Assembly: GCF_002355515.1 (NCBI RefSeq)
Contig: NZ_AP014809.1
Location: forward strand, 4,922,501-4,986,500
Length of the DNA stretch: 64,000 bases
Source of the DNA: Methylorubrum populi
GTDB taxonomy: Bacteria; Pseudomonadota; Alphaproteobacteria; Rhizobiales; Beijerinckiaceae
Reading direction: 5' to 3'
Positions 1,462 through 9,832 of the stretch are shown here, one piece after another. The first letter of the stretch is position 1. Every line of letters starts with the position of its first letter. The notes under the pieces are model-generated. The model saw only the letters and a program-made list of their open reading frames with translations, was not told the origin of the DNA and ran no database searches. A program made the position numbers and the translations under genes.

Positions 1462-1552
1462 GTGAGGCCCCGCAGGGCTCACAGGTTGGGCGCCGGACGC
1501 AGGTGTCCGGCGGCCCTCGTCATCACGTTGCTCCAAGGAGGATGTGGTCATG
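1462..1552 (+). ncRNA. ROSE-like RNA thermometer in the hsp20 leader
   Basis: Three successive hairpins precede the hsp20 start. The first is GTGAG-CCC/GGGCTCAC with a bulged G (1462-1482). The second is a perfect CGCCGGAC/GTCCGGCG (1491-1512). The third, 1521 to the start codon, folds CACGTTGCTCC against the Shine-Dalgarno GGAGGATGTG. The TTGCT facing AGGAGG is the conserved core of ROSE elements, which in rhizobial relatives hide the ribosome site of small heat-shock genes until the temperature rises. The layout (several hairpins, the last with imperfect pairing over the ribosome site, directly before hsp20) fits well. Folding was done by eye. Confidence 0.72.
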
Positions 1553-2038
1553 AGGACCTTCGACTTCGCTCCCCTCTACCGTTCCACCGTTGGCTTCGAC
1601 CGACTGTTCTCCCTGCTCGACCAGGCCGAGACCTCGGCCGCTTGGCCGCCCTACGACATCGAGAAGATGTCCGACGACGCCTACCGCATCACCATGGCGG
1701 TCGCCGGGTTCGCGCAGGACGAGATCGAGCTCACCCAGCACGACACCACGCTTCTCGTCACGGGCCAGAAAAAGGCCCAGGAGGGCGAGCGGCAGTACCT
1801 GCACCGGGGCATCGCCGGCCGCACCTTCCGCCAGACCTTCAACCTGGCCCAGCACGTGCGGGTCACGGGCGCGAGCCTGGAAAACGGCCTGCTCACGGTG
1901 GAGTTGAAGCGCGAGGTGCCGGAAGCGCTCAAGCCCCGCCGCATCGCCATCGGCGGCACACAGGCCGCCGTCGGGCAGGACAACGGGCCGGCCCGAAACG
2001 CGCCGGTTCAGGTCGAGGATCGGTCCAAGGCCGCCTGA
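1550..2038 (+). CDS. Small heat-shock protein, Hsp20/IbpA family
   Basis: A 162-residue ATP-independent holdase that binds unfolding proteins in the cytoplasm. The N-terminal segment (RSTVGFDRLFSLLD) and the alpha-crystallin domain (about 35-130) are typical of class A rhizobial/IbpA-type proteins. YDIEKMSDDAYRITMAVAGF opens the domain, and GRTFRQTFNL and LENGLLTVELKRE close it. The ATG at 1550 lies 8 nt after AAGGAGG; an in-frame GTG at 1544 is too close to that site. The ribosome site is buried in a ROSE-like hairpin, so heat-controlled translation is expected. The companion gene at 2141 follows about 100 bases later. Confidence 0.93.
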   Translation: MRTFDFAPLYRSTVGFDRLFSLLDQAETSAAWPPYDIEKMSDDAYRITMAVAGFAQDEIELTQHDTTLLVTGQKKAQEGERQYLHRGIAGRTFRQTFNLAQHVRVTGASLENGLLTVELKREVPEALKPRRIAIGGTQAAVGQDNGPARNAPVQVEDRSKAA

Positions 2039-2140
2039 CCGATCGCGCAAGCGCACACGAGCCGGCATCCCCGGGGCCTCACGCTTCCGGGGACCGCTTC
2101 CTTTTCGCACGAAAACCCCGTGCCTTCAGGGAGATGACCC

Positions 2141-2638
2141 GTGACGATGATGGAAATCGATCCCGCCCGTTCCGGCCCCATGAACCCGGCCGGCGCGCCG
2201 GCCGCCTCGTTCGAGACGTGGCAGGCGCTCGTCGCCCCCGGCGACGTGTTCCGCCATCCGCGCGAGGTGCTGGCCCACCCGCTCCTCGCGCGCGCGGACA
2301 AGCGCGCGATCCTGGCCGCCTGGGCGTCCGATGCCTGCGCCCTCGAGAACGCGCCCGCGATGCGGTGCCTCACCGGCTGCAAGGCCGAGCCGGTGCCGGT
2401 CGATGCCGTGCTCGCCGCGCTCGGCACCCTCGACCAGGAGCGTTCCTCCGCGACGAATCCGTATCCGGGCCGTCGCGCAGAGCCCCGGCGCCCGCGGCGC
2501 TTGTCGAACCGGCACCGGTTCCTTCGCCCTGGGCGCCGGAACGATGACGACGATCCGCCGCCCTGCCCGGCGGCGATGAGGCCGCGCCCGCGGACGCCCC
2601 CGAGCGGCGCGGCCCTGGCGGTCGGCATCCTGGCCTGA
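2141..2638 (+). CDS. Hsp20-linked conserved hypothetical protein
   Basis: A 165-residue protein of unknown function. A conserved-looking core at about 30-95 carries GDVFRHPREVLAHPLLARADKR-type sequence, then AILAAWASDACALE and a short C-x3-C (RCLTGCKAE). The last 60 residues are low-complexity, Arg/Pro-rich, with the run DDDDPPPC. The GTG start follows GGGAGATG, and ATGs two and three codons later are alternatives. It follows hsp20 in the same direction after about 100 bases without a strong terminator, so it may be co-induced by heat. The HPxEVLxHPxL pattern resembles short uncharacterised proteins often found with stress genes in Rhizobiales; this is a family memory, not a search. Confidence 0.68.
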   Translation: MTMMEIDPARSGPMNPAGAPAASFETWQALVAPGDVFRHPREVLAHPLLARADKRAILAAWASDACALENAPAMRCLTGCKAEPVPVDAVLAALGTLDQERSSATNPYPGRRAEPRRPRRLSNRHRFLRPGRRNDDDDPPPCPAAMRPRPRTPPSGAALAVGILA

Positions 2639-2705
2639 CCGCGAGGCGGCGTCCGGGCTCAGCTTGGGTCTGACGCCCGGCGGCGCCCTCCGCGGGAGGA
2701 CGCCG

Positions 2706-4685
2706 TCACCGCCGCCCGAACAGCCGCTCGATATCGGCGAGACCGAGCGTCACGAAGGTCGGGCGGCCGTGATTGCACGAGCCGGAGAGCGGCGTCGCCT
2801 CCATCTCGCGCAGGAGCGCGTTCATCTCCTCGGGCTTGAGGCGGCGCCCGGCGCGGATCGAGCCGTGGCAGCTCATCCGCGAGAGGATCGCGTCGAGGCG
2901 GCGGCTCACCGGGTCGGGATCGCCCGCGCCGGCGGGCCCGCCCTCCTCGACGCCGCTCGCTTCCAGCGCGTCGAGCACGTCGAGCACGAGACCCTTCACC
3001 GAGCCGCCCGCGAGCGCCGACGGCACGGACCGCACCAGCACCGCGCCGGGGCCGAACGCCTCCAGGCTCAGGCCCAGCCGCTCCAGCTCGGGCGCGGCCT
3101 CGACGAGGCGGTCGGCCTCCTCGGGCGCCATCTCGACCACGTCGGGGATGAGCAGGCCCTGGGCGAGCACACCGCCGCCGGCCCGCTCGCGCTTCAGCCG
3201 CTCGTAGACGAGGCGCTCGTGGGCGGCGTGCTGATCGACCAGCACGATCCCGTCGCGGGTCTGGGCGACGATGTAGGTCTCGTGGATCTGCGCCCGGGCG
3301 GCACCGAGCGGATGGGACTCGGGATGCGCCTCGGCTTCCGGCGCCGTCTCCGGCTCGGGCCGCAGGTCGGCGCCGGGTGGGGCGAGATCGGCGGAGAACA
3401 AGGCCTGCGGTGTCTCGGCGAAGCCGGAACGCTCCGCTTGATAAGCCGGGCGCTGCGGCGGGCGGTAGCCCGCCGGCGCGGCCACCGAGGGGCCGGAGAA
3501 CAGGCGGCTCGCTGGACGCGGCATGAGCGGGCTCGCGGCGGTGACGCCCGAATGCACGGCGAAGCCGCCGGCGGATACCATCGGCGGCGCGTCGCCGCCG
3601 CCGGCCCGAAGCGCCTCGAGGGCGGCCTGGGTGCCGGTGCTGGAGGAGCGCGCGCCCGCCCGGCGCAGGGCCTCGTGGATCGCGCTGACGATCAGGGCGC
3701 GGACCAGCCCCGGCTCGCGGAAGCGCAATTCGGTCTTGGCCGGATGCACGTTCACGTCGACGAGGGCGGGATCGCAGGTGAGCATCAGCGCCAGCACGGG
3801 GTGGCGGTCGGAGCTCATCGTGTCGGCATAGGCCCCGCGCACGGCCCCGAGCAGCAGCCGGTCGCGCACCGGGCGCCCGTTGACGACGAAGTGTATGTGG
3901 TTTGCCGCCCCGCGGTGGAAGGTCGGCAGGCCGACATGGCCCTGAAGCGCGAAGCCCTCGCGGGCCATGTCGACGGGCACGGAGTTGCCCGGAAAGTCCG
4001 GCCCCAGCACCGCGCCGAGGCGGCGCAGCAGGGCCGCCGGGCCGGGCTCGCTCTCGGCGGGGAACACGGTCGGGCTGCCGCTCTCGGTGCGCAGGGTGAA
4101 GCGGATCTGCGGCTGCGCCACCGCGAGCCGGCGCAGGATCTCGGAGACCGCCGCCGTCTCGGCCCGGTCGGATTTGAGGAATTTCAGCCGGGCCGGAGTC
4201 GCGGCGAAGAGTTCGGTCACCTCGATCCGGGTGCCCCGCGTCGCGGGCGCCGGCCGCACCGGGCCCTTGGTGCCGGAATCGATCGTCAGGCTCACTCCCT
4301 CCCCGTCGGCGGTGCGCGAGGTCAGGGTGAGGCGCGACACCGCGCCGATCGAGGGCAGCGCCTCGCCGCGGAAACCGAGCGAGCCGATCCGGGTGAGGTC
4401 GCCGTCGGGGAGCTTCGAGGTGGCGTGGCGCTCGACCGCGAGCGCCAGATCCTCCGCCCCCATGCCGATCCCATCGTCGACGACGCGGATCAGGCGCCGA
4501 CCGCCGCCCTCGATCGCCACCTCGATGCTGCGCGCGCCGGCATCGATGGCGTTCTCCACGAGCTCCTTCACGGCGGAGGCCGGCCGCTCGACTACCTCGC
4601 CGGCGGCGATGCGGTCGACCAGGATCGGGTCGAGGCGGCGGACGGCGGTGCGCGGCGGATTGCGGACGTCGGGAGCGGCGGACAT
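2706..4685 (-). CDS. mutL: DNA mismatch repair protein MutL
   Basis: A 659-residue mismatch-repair ATPase that couples MutS to strand removal. The N-terminal GHKL ATPase has ENAIDAG (44-50), DDGIGM (70-75) and GFRGEAL (104-110). The C-terminal dimerisation domain contains DQHAAHERLVYE, matching the DQHA(X)2E(X)4E endonuclease metal motif, and ends with CNHGRPTF. MutL with this motif nicks DNA itself, as in bacteria lacking MutH. A Pro/Ala-rich linker joins the domains. ATG 4685 is preferred over a TTG three codons earlier. mutS lies at 26551-29298 in the same window. The gene is convergent with the 2141 gene and divergent from the thiaminase gene. Confidence 0.96.
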   Translation of the reverse strand: MSAAPDVRNPPRTAVRRLDPILVDRIAAGEVVERPASAVKELVENAIDAGARSIEVAIEGGGRRLIRVVDDGIGMGAEDLALAVERHATSKLPDGDLTRIGSLGFRGEALPSIGAVSRLTLTSRTADGEGVSLTIDSGTKGPVRPAPATRGTRIEVTELFAATPARLKFLKSDRAETAAVSEILRRLAVAQPQIRFTLRTESGSPTVFPAESEPGPAALLRRLGAVLGPDFPGNSVPVDMAREGFALQGHVGLPTFHRGAANHIHFVVNGRPVRDRLLLGAVRGAYADTMSSDRHPVLALMLTCDPALVDVNVHPAKTELRFREPGLVRALIVSAIHEALRRAGARSSSTGTQAALEALRAGGGDAPPMVSAGGFAVHSGVTAASPLMPRPASRLFSGPSVAAPAGYRPPQRPAYQAERSGFAETPQALFSADLAPPGADLRPEPETAPEAEAHPESHPLGAARAQIHETYIVAQTRDGIVLVDQHAAHERLVYERLKRERAGGGVLAQGLLIPDVVEMAPEEADRLVEAAPELERLGLSLEAFGPGAVLVRSVPSALAGGSVKGLVLDVLDALEASGVEEGGPAGAGDPDPVSRRLDAILSRMSCHGSIRAGRRLKPEEMNALLREMEATPLSGSCNHGRPTFVTLGLADIERLFGRR

Positions 4686-5052
4686 GACCCGCAAAATATA
4701 GGGGGTCCGAGGGCCGCCCGATAGGCACCTCCAAAGCCGGCGCCGACGAGCAAAATAAACTCAAAAGAAATTTATCAATTTGAGGTTTCTTAAAATCGCG
4801 TCTCAATCCAGTATCATCGCGCAACCTGAGCGCGAATCGCTCGCTGAAGTGTGATCGGAGCCGAACACAGTCGCAGGTCTCCGCAGTTCGATTGCTCACT
4901 TAATCAAATATTTTGGTCACCATTTGCTTTGCCGCGAAGTCGCGTGGTGAAAATACAAATTATCGTCGCGACAGCTGAATTTTCCTTCGTTCAGCACAAT
5001 CGATTTGCATCGCGAAACAAGGCCAATCGACCAGTTTCACGGAGGATGGATC
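4686..5052. other. AT-rich intergenic region between mutL and thiaminase gene
   Basis: This 367-base gap is far richer in A and T than the window average, with runs such as AAAATAAACTCAAAAGAAA. It must hold promoters for both divergent genes, but no clear -35/-10 pair was recognised. No RNA gene or convincing small frame was found. The composition continues into the thiaminase gene and suggests that gene and leader arrived together. Confidence 0.5.
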
Positions 5053-6492
5053 ATGCCGCCGCCCATTAAGAAAATCAGCCGCGCGCTCAACATTTGGGCT
5101 GCGTCCTTGCTGTTTCTATGTAGTTTTACGCAAATATCGACCGCGGAATCTTTGACGGTCGCTCTCTATCCCTACGTCCCTCGCATCGAACAGTTCAAAA
5201 CCGCGATCACGGAAGCCTGGGCCGAGGTACAGCCGAAGGTCCCGCTGACGTTCCTGCCGACGCGGGACTGGGATGGCGGATACACGAACAACCCGCCGGA
5301 CGGCGCGGACGTCTTTGTCTTCGACGCCATGTACCTCGCCCTGTTCAAGTCGCAGAACAATCTGGTTCCGTTCAGTCGGGCTGAGGTCGATAACATCGAT
5401 GATTTTTTGAGCTATGCAATCCAGGGAGCGTCTTCAGATAACGACATCCTCGCGATACCGCTGCTTGGCTGCGCCAATATTCTTTTCTATCAGAAAAATG
5501 ATGCGCAGCTGGCGCAGGCGGCGACGCTCACAGCCGTGACGAATACGCTCAATCAGTGCACGTTCACCAGCATCAAGCCACCGGATCGGCGCGGTATCAT
5601 GATCGACATGGCCGGCGGTACGACGAACGCCGCGCTCTATGCCGATATCGATCATGCGATCACCGGTATCTATCCCCTGCCGCAGCCCCCATCGGGGGAC
5701 CTCGATGAAAAGGCGATTGCGACGATGAAGCTGCTGTTCGCGACGTCGTCTTACTACAACGCGACAGCCGACACCGTCGATGCCTATGCGCGGAGCGCCT
5801 GGTTTTCGCAAGGTTTCGGGCGATCCGTGGTTGGTTTCACGGAGTCGATGAGCGAGATGAGTCCGCAGACGCTCGAAAATACGGCGTTCAAAGTCATGCC
5901 GCTGTCCGACAATTCGTCCAACCGTCCGCTCTTCTACTCGGACATGATCGGAGTGAACACGGCGACGAGCACACGCGGGACGACGGCACTGGCCAAGCAA
6001 CTCGCCAACGTGATGGCGTCCAGTGCCACGGTCGTCGCAAGCTTCGCCGGTACGGATGCCGGTGTACCGCCGCAATACCTGATGCCGGCACGGCCGAGCG
6101 TGTTCAACGCACTGGCGCCGAAATATCCGATCTACGCGGAGATGTTCAAACTGACGCAGACCAATCCGATCCTGTTCGCCCTCAATGCCGACGCCAGAAA
6201 CTGGGTGAATTCGGTCAAGGACACCATCAAGAGGGACTACAGGCTGAATTATCAGTGCGGATGCGACTATTCGGCCGGTCAGGTGATCGCGAACAACAGC
6301 GCTGCGCCGGCAATCTGCAACCCGATCTGCAGTCAGCACGCCGGCTGGAACGGGAACTGGACCAATGCGTCCTATACCGGCGAGCTGTCGGTCTGCCAGT
6401 GTAACGCCTGCCCCCTGCAGACGGCGACCTCCGTGTCGCAGCAATCGGCCTCGCCGATGTCCCGACGCCCGGCCCGGCCCTCCAAGCCTTGA
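5053..6492 (+). CDS. Secreted thiaminase I-like enzyme with C-terminal lectin-like domain
   Basis: A 479-residue exported protein. A signal peptide (about 1-31, ending STA) is followed by a thiaminase I fold to about residue 395. Thiaminase I (thiamine pyridinylase) swaps the thiazole of thiamine for another nucleophile. Recalled features of the Paenibacillus enzyme are matched: ALYPYVP, DVFVFDAMYL, the nucleophile region IPLLGCANILFY (Cys140), GIMIDMAGGTT, GFTESM (catalytic Glu264), PLFYSD (Asp297) and QYLMPAR. Residues 402-453 add seven cysteines and CSQHAGWNGNWT...SVCQC, resembling MVL-type mannan-binding domains. ATG 5053 has GGAGG 7 nt upstream. Base composition is lower in GC than the neighbours, suggesting transfer. 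No thiamine genes are adjacent. Thiaminase is well supported; the lectin domain is inferred. Confidence 0.87.
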   Translation: MPPPIKKISRALNIWAASLLFLCSFTQISTAESLTVALYPYVPRIEQFKTAITEAWAEVQPKVPLTFLPTRDWDGGYTNNPPDGADVFVFDAMYLALFKSQNNLVPFSRAEVDNIDDFLSYAIQGASSDNDILAIPLLGCANILFYQKNDAQLAQAATLTAVTNTLNQCTFTSIKPPDRRGIMIDMAGGTTNAALYADIDHAITGIYPLPQPPSGDLDEKAIATMKLLFATSSYYNATADTVDAYARSAWFSQGFGRSVVGFTESMSEMSPQTLENTAFKVMPLSDNSSNRPLFYSDMIGVNTATSTRGTTALAKQLANVMASSATVVASFAGTDAGVPPQYLMPARPSVFNALAPKYPIYAEMFKLTQTNPILFALNADARNWVNSVKDTIKRDYRLNYQCGCDYSAGQVIANNSAAPAICNPICSQHAGWNGNWTNASYTGELSVCQCNACPLQTATSVSQQSASPMSRRPARPSKP

Positions 6493-6520
6493 GCATCGGG
6501 TCGGCCTGACCCCTTGCCTA

Positions 6521-6555
6521 CCGCCGGCCCGACGGTGTTTCCGTCGAGCCGGCGG
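6521..6555. terminator. Bidirectional hairpin terminator
   Basis: CCGCCGGC and GCCGGCGG form an outer 8-bp stem. After one mismatch, CGACGG/CCGTCG forms a 6-bp inner stem around a TGTTT loop. It sits exactly between the convergent thiaminase and acyl-CoA dehydrogenase genes, so it could end both transcripts. No strong U-tract is present. Confidence 0.65.
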
Positions 6556-6567
6556 TCTCTCATGGCC

Positions 6568-7809
6568 TCATCCCCGCGGCAGCATCCGGTCGCTGATGAT
6601 GCGGCGCTGGATCTCGCTGGTGCCCTCGAAGATCGTGGTGAGCCGCGCATCGCGCCAGTAGCGCTCGATCCGCCGCTCGGTGGTGTAGCCGTTGCCGCCG
6701 TGGAGCTGCATCGCCTGGTTCGTCACCCGCACCGCCATCTCGGTGGCGAGCAGCTTCACGCCGGCCGATTCGCTCTCGGCGGGCAGGCCCTCGTCGAGGA
6801 GGTGGGCCACCTGCTGCCAGTAGGCGCGGGCCTGGGCCACCTCGGCCGCCATGTCGGCCAGCGCGAAGCGCAGGGCCTGGAACTGGCCGATCGGTTGGCC
6901 GAACTGCTCGCGCTCCTGAAGGTAGGCTGTGCAATCCTCCACCGCGGCGCGGGCCACGCCGACGGCGCGGGCCGCGGTGTGGACCCGGGCGATGTTGAGG
7001 CCGCGCTGGACCGAGGCGAAGCCGCCGGAATCCGCATCCGCCCCCTCGTCGCCGTAGAGGCCGGTGAGCCGGTCGCGCTCGGGCACCCGCACCCCGTCGA
7101 GGGTCAGCTCGAAGGTGAGGAAGCCGTGGTAGCCGATCTTGTCGATCACCGTGCCGGTCATGCCCTTCGGGAAGGTGCCGGGCTCCTTGACGACGAGGAA
7201 GGGCTCCAGCCCGGCCGAGCGCGGCTCGCCGGGCTCGGGGTCGCGTACCCGGGCCAGGACCTCGATAAAGTCGGCGCCTTTCGCGAAGCCGGCCCAGCGC
7301 TTGGTGCCGGTGAGCACCCATTCGTCGCCCTCGCGCACCGCCCGCGTCTGCACGCCGGCCAGATCCGAGCCGGCTTTGGGTTCGGACAGCGCGATCGATC
7401 CGATCCACTGCCCCTTGGCGGATTTGGCGAGCAGCGCCCGGCGGCTCTCGTCGTCGAGGGTCTGGGTGCCGAGCCCCTGGCCGCGGGCCAGGATCGAGCC
7501 GGTGGAGAGCCACGCCCGGGCGAGTTCCTCCGAGATCAGGCAGTACTCGAACACGCCGAGCCCCATCCCGCCATACTCGGCGGGGATGGTGATGCCGAAC
7601 CAGCCCTTCGCCGCCATCTGGTCGATGAGCGCGCGGGGCATCTCGCCTTTCTGCGGGTCGAGTTCGTCGGCGATCGGCAGGATCACGTCGCGGGCGAAAT
7701 CCCGCGCCTCCTGCTGCAGGGCGACGCGCTTCTCCGTGCGCCAGGGCGAGAGCAGCTCGGGCGGGCGCGGCGCCTTGAAGCCCGGCTTGGCGACATCCGG
7801 CTCGGCCAT
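6568..7809 (-). CDS. Acyl-CoA dehydrogenase family protein
   Basis: A 413-residue FAD enzyme of the acyl-CoA dehydrogenase family, which introduces a 2,3-double bond into an acyl-CoA and passes electrons to ETF. The N-terminal helical domain contains GWFGITIPAEYGG. The middle domain has IALSEPKAGSD and GTKRWAGFA. The C-terminal domain has REQFGQPIGQFQA, QLHGGNGYT and the FAD-binding IFEGTSEIQRRII near the end. Length is about average for the family (380-410). ATG 7809 has GGAGG just upstream. Substrate specificity cannot be read from sequence. It stands alone and is divergent from the ABC-F gene. Confidence 0.9.
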   Translation of the reverse strand: MAEPDVAKPGFKAPRPPELLSPWRTEKRVALQQEARDFARDVILPIADELDPQKGEMPRALIDQMAAKGWFGITIPAEYGGMGLGVFEYCLISEELARAWLSTGSILARGQGLGTQTLDDESRRALLAKSAKGQWIGSIALSEPKAGSDLAGVQTRAVREGDEWVLTGTKRWAGFAKGADFIEVLARVRDPEPGEPRSAGLEPFLVVKEPGTFPKGMTGTVIDKIGYHGFLTFELTLDGVRVPERDRLTGLYGDEGADADSGGFASVQRGLNIARVHTAARAVGVARAAVEDCTAYLQEREQFGQPIGQFQALRFALADMAAEVAQARAYWQQVAHLLDEGLPAESESAGVKLLATEMAVRVTNQAMQLHGGNGYTTERRIERYWRDARLTTIFEGTSEIQRRIISDRMLPRG

Positions 7810-7969
7810 GGTTCCTCCGCTCGTTGTTGTCGTTGTTCGTCCGAGCCGAACGCTCAAGCTGGCAAAACGTTCGCGGACGCGCCGGGAATGGACGGCGCGG
7901 GACAGTCGCGGGGCGGTCGCGGGGCGGGCGCTCTTGCACTGAGGCGCGCCCGCCCCCAGAACGCCGCTC

Positions 7970-9832
<1,863 letters not shown>

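Follow-up and report, generated by a model that had tools for sequence, protein, structure and literature searches.

Within a 64,000-nucleotide stretch of the Methylorubrum populi genome (assembly GCF_002355515.1, contig NZ_AP014809.1, positions 4,922,501 to 4,986,500; hereafter the window), an open reading frame (ORF) on the forward strand at 5053–6492 encodes a 479-residue thiaminase I whose catalytic core is followed by a cysteine-rich tail related to MVL, the mannan-binding lectin of Microcystis viridis. We consider it highly probable that this protein is a mobile, exported thiaminase I that was acquired horizontally as a single-gene insert, and that its tail is a disulfide-rich module derived from one MVL-type repeat. 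This judgment covers every part of the reading except sugar binding by the tail, which is weighed separately below.

The enzyme core and its MVL-related tail

The frame is open from the ATG at 5053 to the stop codon at 6490–6492, and a GGAGGA sequence at 5041–5046 probably serves as its ribosome-binding site. Residues 1–32 (5053–5148) resemble a signal peptide, with a hydrophobic 11-mer beginning at residue 14 and a low-confidence helix at residues 6–24 of the structural model; the segment was not selected as a lipoprotein signal by our own regular-expression rule, and export through the Sec pathway is probable. The thiaminase I core follows at residues 33–395 (5149–6237). Its identity, proposed in the first-pass annotation, is borne out by the thiaminase I equivalog model TIGR04541 (400.7 bits over residues 24–385, cut-off 175), by PF22141 (156.8 bits, cut-off 27), and by matches to four thiaminase I chains in the PDB (E 1.3e-71 to 7e-63). 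The predicted structure likewise has the thiaminase I fold; across residues 30–392 the protein agrees with thiamine pyridinylase BcmE (2thi, 3thi, 4kys) in the fold and length of the core and in its catalytic residues.

C140 (5470–5472) and E264 (5842–5844) align with positions 113 and 241 of 2thi_A, which we take to be the catalytic residues of that enzyme, and D297 (5941–5943) aligns with a conserved motif aspartate. All three are invariant in an alignment of 31 sequences and lie in the motifs where they had been expected. In thiaminase I enzymes, the cysteine displaces the thiazole, the glutamate acts as base, and a second nucleophile then takes the pyrimidine; with C140 as nucleophile and E264 as base, the window protein would be an intact enzyme that cleaves vitamin B1 by the same route.

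The protein is about 85 residues longer than the solved thiaminase I chains, which lack a cysteine-rich tail. The seven cysteines that had been noted in residues 402–453 (6256–6411) are all present (C402, C404, C422, C426, C448, C450 and C453). An assembly or frame artefact was ruled out, because eight near relatives (61–98% identity) carry the same tail. The MVL-like character assigned to this region was upheld by three comparisons and fell short in a fourth: PF12151, the Pfam model of MVL, gave residues 415–450 (6295–6402) a score of 16.6 bits (E 0.0078), short of the gathering cut-off of 25. A hidden Markov model (HMM) built from 14 MVL repeats of non-thiaminase proteins scored 27.3 bits on the tail, whereas shuffled tails with the cysteines held in place (n = 200, of which 139 were reported) reached at most 6.2 bits on the same model, excluding a chance cluster of cysteines as the origin of the tail. 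Alignment of the tail with MVL by hhalign gave 98.7%, and the tail of the predicted structure adopts the MVL fold. The window tail thus shares descent with MVL repeats. It resembles one repeat of MVL (1zhq, 1zhs) in fold and in its WxGxW...SVC pattern, but differs in being fused to an enzyme, in its seven cysteines, which would form disulfides, in the replacement of a tryptophan by alanine, and in copy number, with one strong domain in the ORF versus two repeats per chain in MVL.

Two other searches added little. Foldseek with the whole model returned thiaminases first and then sugar-binding proteins and fusions, a result uninformative on the tail, and a match of the ORF to PF25323 (16.1 bits, below cut-off) was taken as chance.

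Distribution of the tail among thiaminase I proteins

To place the fusion among its relatives, we assembled the window protein, a Photorhabdus translation and the relatives listed by three similarity searches (the best 120 of 296, all 89 of 89, and the best 120 of 147, with 8000 candidates scored in both 120-row searches). Removal of two fragments and one duplicate (the Photorhabdus translation) reduced 264 proteins to 261 of near full length. Both domains occur together in 179 of these 261 proteins, a proportion that is not a natural frequency. The second and third searches were centered on tail-less proteins. The other 82 lack the tail (two of them, P0178 and P0186, are partial), and 74 of the 82 end within 25 residues of the core. 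A fusion unique to the window is thereby rejected, and the earlier view of it as exceptional is not borne out; the accompanying remark that thiaminase I normally ends before the tail is misleading, being true only of these 82.

A regular expression for the tail motif matched 118 of 121 proteins (the window protein and 120 listed relatives), and each of the other three has one substitution. Among the 120 relatives listed, 99 carry PF12151 in the precomputed domain column. The closest listed tailed relative, P0002, is 98% identical to the window protein, and tailed enzymes also occur, among the matches listed, in Burkholderia, Moorena, Crocosphaera, Aquibium, Bradyrhizobium and others. A scan of genome contigs recovered at least 11 loci: the 10 examined all carry the tail, and the eleventh is that of Photorhabdus. 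The four listed Photorhabdus and Xenorhabdus enzymes stop at the point at which a tail would begin, just past its first cysteine, and no remnant of a tail was seen behind the Photorhabdus gene.

In a FastTree phylogeny of the 261 cores, 71 tail-less proteins grouped together and the tail label switched seven times, one switch being due to a truncated sequence. A mixture-model tree of 80 proteins, a sample of 17 chosen rows plus random ones that excluded P0178 and P0186, gave six switches (six also at both the 5% and the 95% quantile across bootstrap trees) versus 25.5 when labels were shuffled; an earlier 85-row tree gave four. The tail is therefore the standard build of one thiaminase I branch: it characterizes one side of the tree of cores, where it has been lost here and there, and the window protein shares this two-part build. 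One gain followed by several losses is the simplest reading of a tree that is unrooted and in which some rows have long branches. Within the tailed branch, P0158 has DUF5710 in place of the tail, which could be a misassembly.

Lipobox-like N-termini, scored by the same rule as above, were found in 12 of 28 tail-less and 14 of 154 tailed proteins (n = 182, after five of the 187 sequences then in hand were dropped as duplicate, partial or fragment). These counts suggest that a lipoprotein anchor and the tail trade off against each other, but independent pairs on the tree gave no support (median p 1), and we make no such claim.

A low-GC insert between mutL and an acyl-CoA dehydrogenase gene

The gene lies in a segment of 1,841 bp (4727–6567) that blastn showed to be absent from the same place in a close relative, G005. 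On the left is mutL (2706–4694, reverse strand; NF000953, 828.4 bits, cut-off 693) and on the right an acyl-CoA dehydrogenase gene (6568–7992, reverse strand; PF00441 and PF02771). On the two sides of the site, the DNA of this relative is 89% and 87% identical to that of the window, its MutL is 93% identical, and only 27 bp separate its flanks versus 1,841 bp in the window. A second relative, G006, matched over mutL only and is thus uninformative on the empty site. The segment also differs in composition: guanine-plus-cytosine content is 0.591 in the thiaminase gene and 0.489 in the DNA before it, compared with 0.746 in mutL and 0.712 in the dehydrogenase gene, while the values at third codon positions are 0.762, 0.928 and 0.914 for the thiaminase, mutL and dehydrogenase genes, respectively.

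The enzyme was found in one of 59 genomes of the genus, that of the window, and in none of the 58 others; in one of 398 genomes of a phylum-wide sample (E 1e-20); and, above cut-off, in one of 199 genomes of the family, where 17 more gave weak matches of about 18–25 bits that we take as other binding proteins. Taken with the empty site, this pattern makes horizontal acquisition of a single gene highly probable, with arrival in the M. populi lineage the likely direction of transfer. No direct repeat was found at the insert junctions, none of the eight neighboring ORFs scanned between 1544 and 14378 is a mobility gene, and scans for repeats, promoters and terminators gave nothing firm. A plasmid search by DNA returned no match, and one by protein returned two records, both of the plasmid of a single Rhodococcus fascians strain and both annotated bcmE, with 31% identity across 77% of the window protein. 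Behind the thiaminase gene, at 6520–6556, lies a 16-bp inverted repeat that is 94% complementary. The empty site between closely matching flanks offers a natural pair of strains, with and without the gene, in which its effect could be followed.

Possible roles of the tail

To our knowledge, why bacteria export thiaminase I is a long-open question, and a conserved tail with a lectin fold gives a direct handle on it. Such a tail might hold the exported enzyme at a glycan-bearing surface and thereby make the removal of vitamin B1 local; that surface might lie outside the cell, in vesicles or on the wall of a partner. In its broadest form, this idea would make the tailed proteins a deep, glycan-anchored thiaminase I branch whose MVL-derived tail, gained perhaps once and strongly constrained, fixes B1 destruction to glycan surfaces; we regard that as improbable on present evidence. 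Were it true, the branch would span alphaproteobacteria, Burkholderia, cyanobacteria, acidobacteria and Desulfovibrio, another thiaminase I lineage would have reached glycan anchoring by way of a jacalin domain, and thiaminase I would act at surfaces as a weapon against, or scavenger of, the vitamin and be movable between bacteria as a single gene.

The residues of the tail weaken the case for glycan binding. Across the 179 thiaminase tails the invariant positions are four cysteines and two tryptophans (C422, C426, C448 and C450; W432 and W436), and all seven cysteines are retained in 172. All 13 of 13 MVL repeats have the tryptophan of their PIWN motif, but only 14 of the 179 tails do; the window protein has Ala413 in its place. 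The Thr-Thr of MVL repeats at 438–439 is Asn-Ala in the window. Position 435 is glutamine in 148 of 179 tails, yet asparagine in the window protein and its eight nearest listed relatives, which read WNGNWT and SVCQC where most others read WNGQWT and SVCGC. In 13 aligned MVL repeats, neither the cysteines of the opening CxCD nor Cys453 were seen. The frame of the tail is thus conserved, and part of its presumed sugar site is not. Because the tryptophan of MVL repeats is missing, sugar binding by the window tail is uncertain, and we lean slightly against it.

The same residues suit a tail that no longer binds sugar and instead serves as a disulfide-clamped structural module, stabilizing or dimerizing the exported enzyme. 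The core is apparently whole in tail-less relatives, which also fits this explanation. It is a serious contender, if a little short of probable, and it leaves two observations unexplained: MVL domains recur on other proteins, and one tail-less relative has a jacalin domain at the corresponding end.

On the first point, a profile of the tail matched in 10 of 398 Pseudomonadota genomes, that of the window included. One match (in G423) is a stop-ridden stretch, four (L035, L037, L038 and L039) are lectin-like proteins with two MVL repeats, and one (L032) is a small, secreted-looking protein. At L033, a carbon-nitrogen hydrolase (1483–2691, reverse strand; PF00795, 77.3 bits) ends in an MVL domain (PF12151, 56.7 bits), which makes it an enzyme–lectin fusion analogous to the tailed thiaminases. 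At L034 and L036, MVL domains lie on frames 348 and 545 residues long in which Pfam matched nothing else, and at L035 a second two-repeat MVL protein (1929–2723, a 265-residue frame) stands directly behind the first two-repeat lectin-like gene. On the second point, the thiaminase I protein P0161 carries a jacalin domain C-terminal of its core (E 7.2e-27). It resembles the window protein in having a lectin-family domain at that end, but jacalin is an unrelated lectin family, P0161 is a single sequence, and it sits in the tail-less branch. It is the sole carrier of PF01419 among the matches listed, and the only tail-less protein of the 261 surveyed with more than 120 residues beyond the core.

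The first-pass annotation proposed that the enzyme, with a glycan-binding tail, could be aimed at fungal or plant-associated competitors or could scavenge thiamine pieces at cell surfaces. The MVL domains on other proteins and the jacalin domain of P0161 favor aiming at glycans, the loss of the MVL tryptophan weakens it, and it is a tentative hypothesis. As local vitamin warfare, the exported enzyme would starve thiamine-dependent fungi, oomycetes, algae or bacteria, and the tail would attach it to glycans that they bear. For MVL, binding to the core of oligomannose glycans is reported (PMC3407925), and PMC10499793 describes a vesicle-borne myxobacterial thiaminase I, CcThi1, that starves Phytophthora. 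CcThi1 is thus a thiaminase I that acts on neighbors, and it is secreted, as the window enzyme is predicted to be. According to that paper, however, CcThi1 belongs to a family of mostly lipoproteins, unlike the window enzyme, is 18–19% identical to the solved bacterial enzymes, and works without its lipoprotein signal; the words domain, lectin and mannan do not occur in its main text. No target is known, and the presumed sugar-site residues are altered in the window tail. We hold warfare as a tentative proposal, doubtful as it stands.

Thiamine salvage is a further candidate, and an unlikely one in our estimation. Here the enzyme, kept near the cell by its tail, would act on external thiamine or on damaged analogues and release pyrimidine, with or without thiazole, which the host could use again. 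Burkholderia thailandensis reportedly gains a growth advantage from salvage by thiaminase. The M. populi genome holds thiC and two TenA-family matches, which give the pyrimidine a working pathway to feed into; a host with thiC, however, has less need of salvage. The best match in the genome to PF02110, the family of the thiazole kinase ThiM, reached 26 bits, just under the cut-off of 27, and covered half of the model. As had been noted, no thiamine salvage gene adjoins the enzyme, and none of the eight neighboring ORFs scanned between 1544 and 14378 is a thiamine gene.

The tail is visible in database domain columns and appears under-noticed: it is undiscussed in the open-licence PMC literature searched. 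Judged on titles and the starts of abstracts, that literature yielded no description of a thiaminase I fused to a lectin domain, and PMC10655256, the one paper found to name PF12151, contains no word beginning with "thiamin". A Burkholderia paper (PMC4475313) regards Burkholderia as the only Gram-negative bacteria with thiaminase I, a restriction that the present match lists do not support.

Elsewhere in the window, a ROSE RNA thermometer (RF00435, 55.8 bits) lies at 1461–1556 on the forward strand, immediately ahead of an Hsp20 gene (1544–2038) whose start it overlaps.
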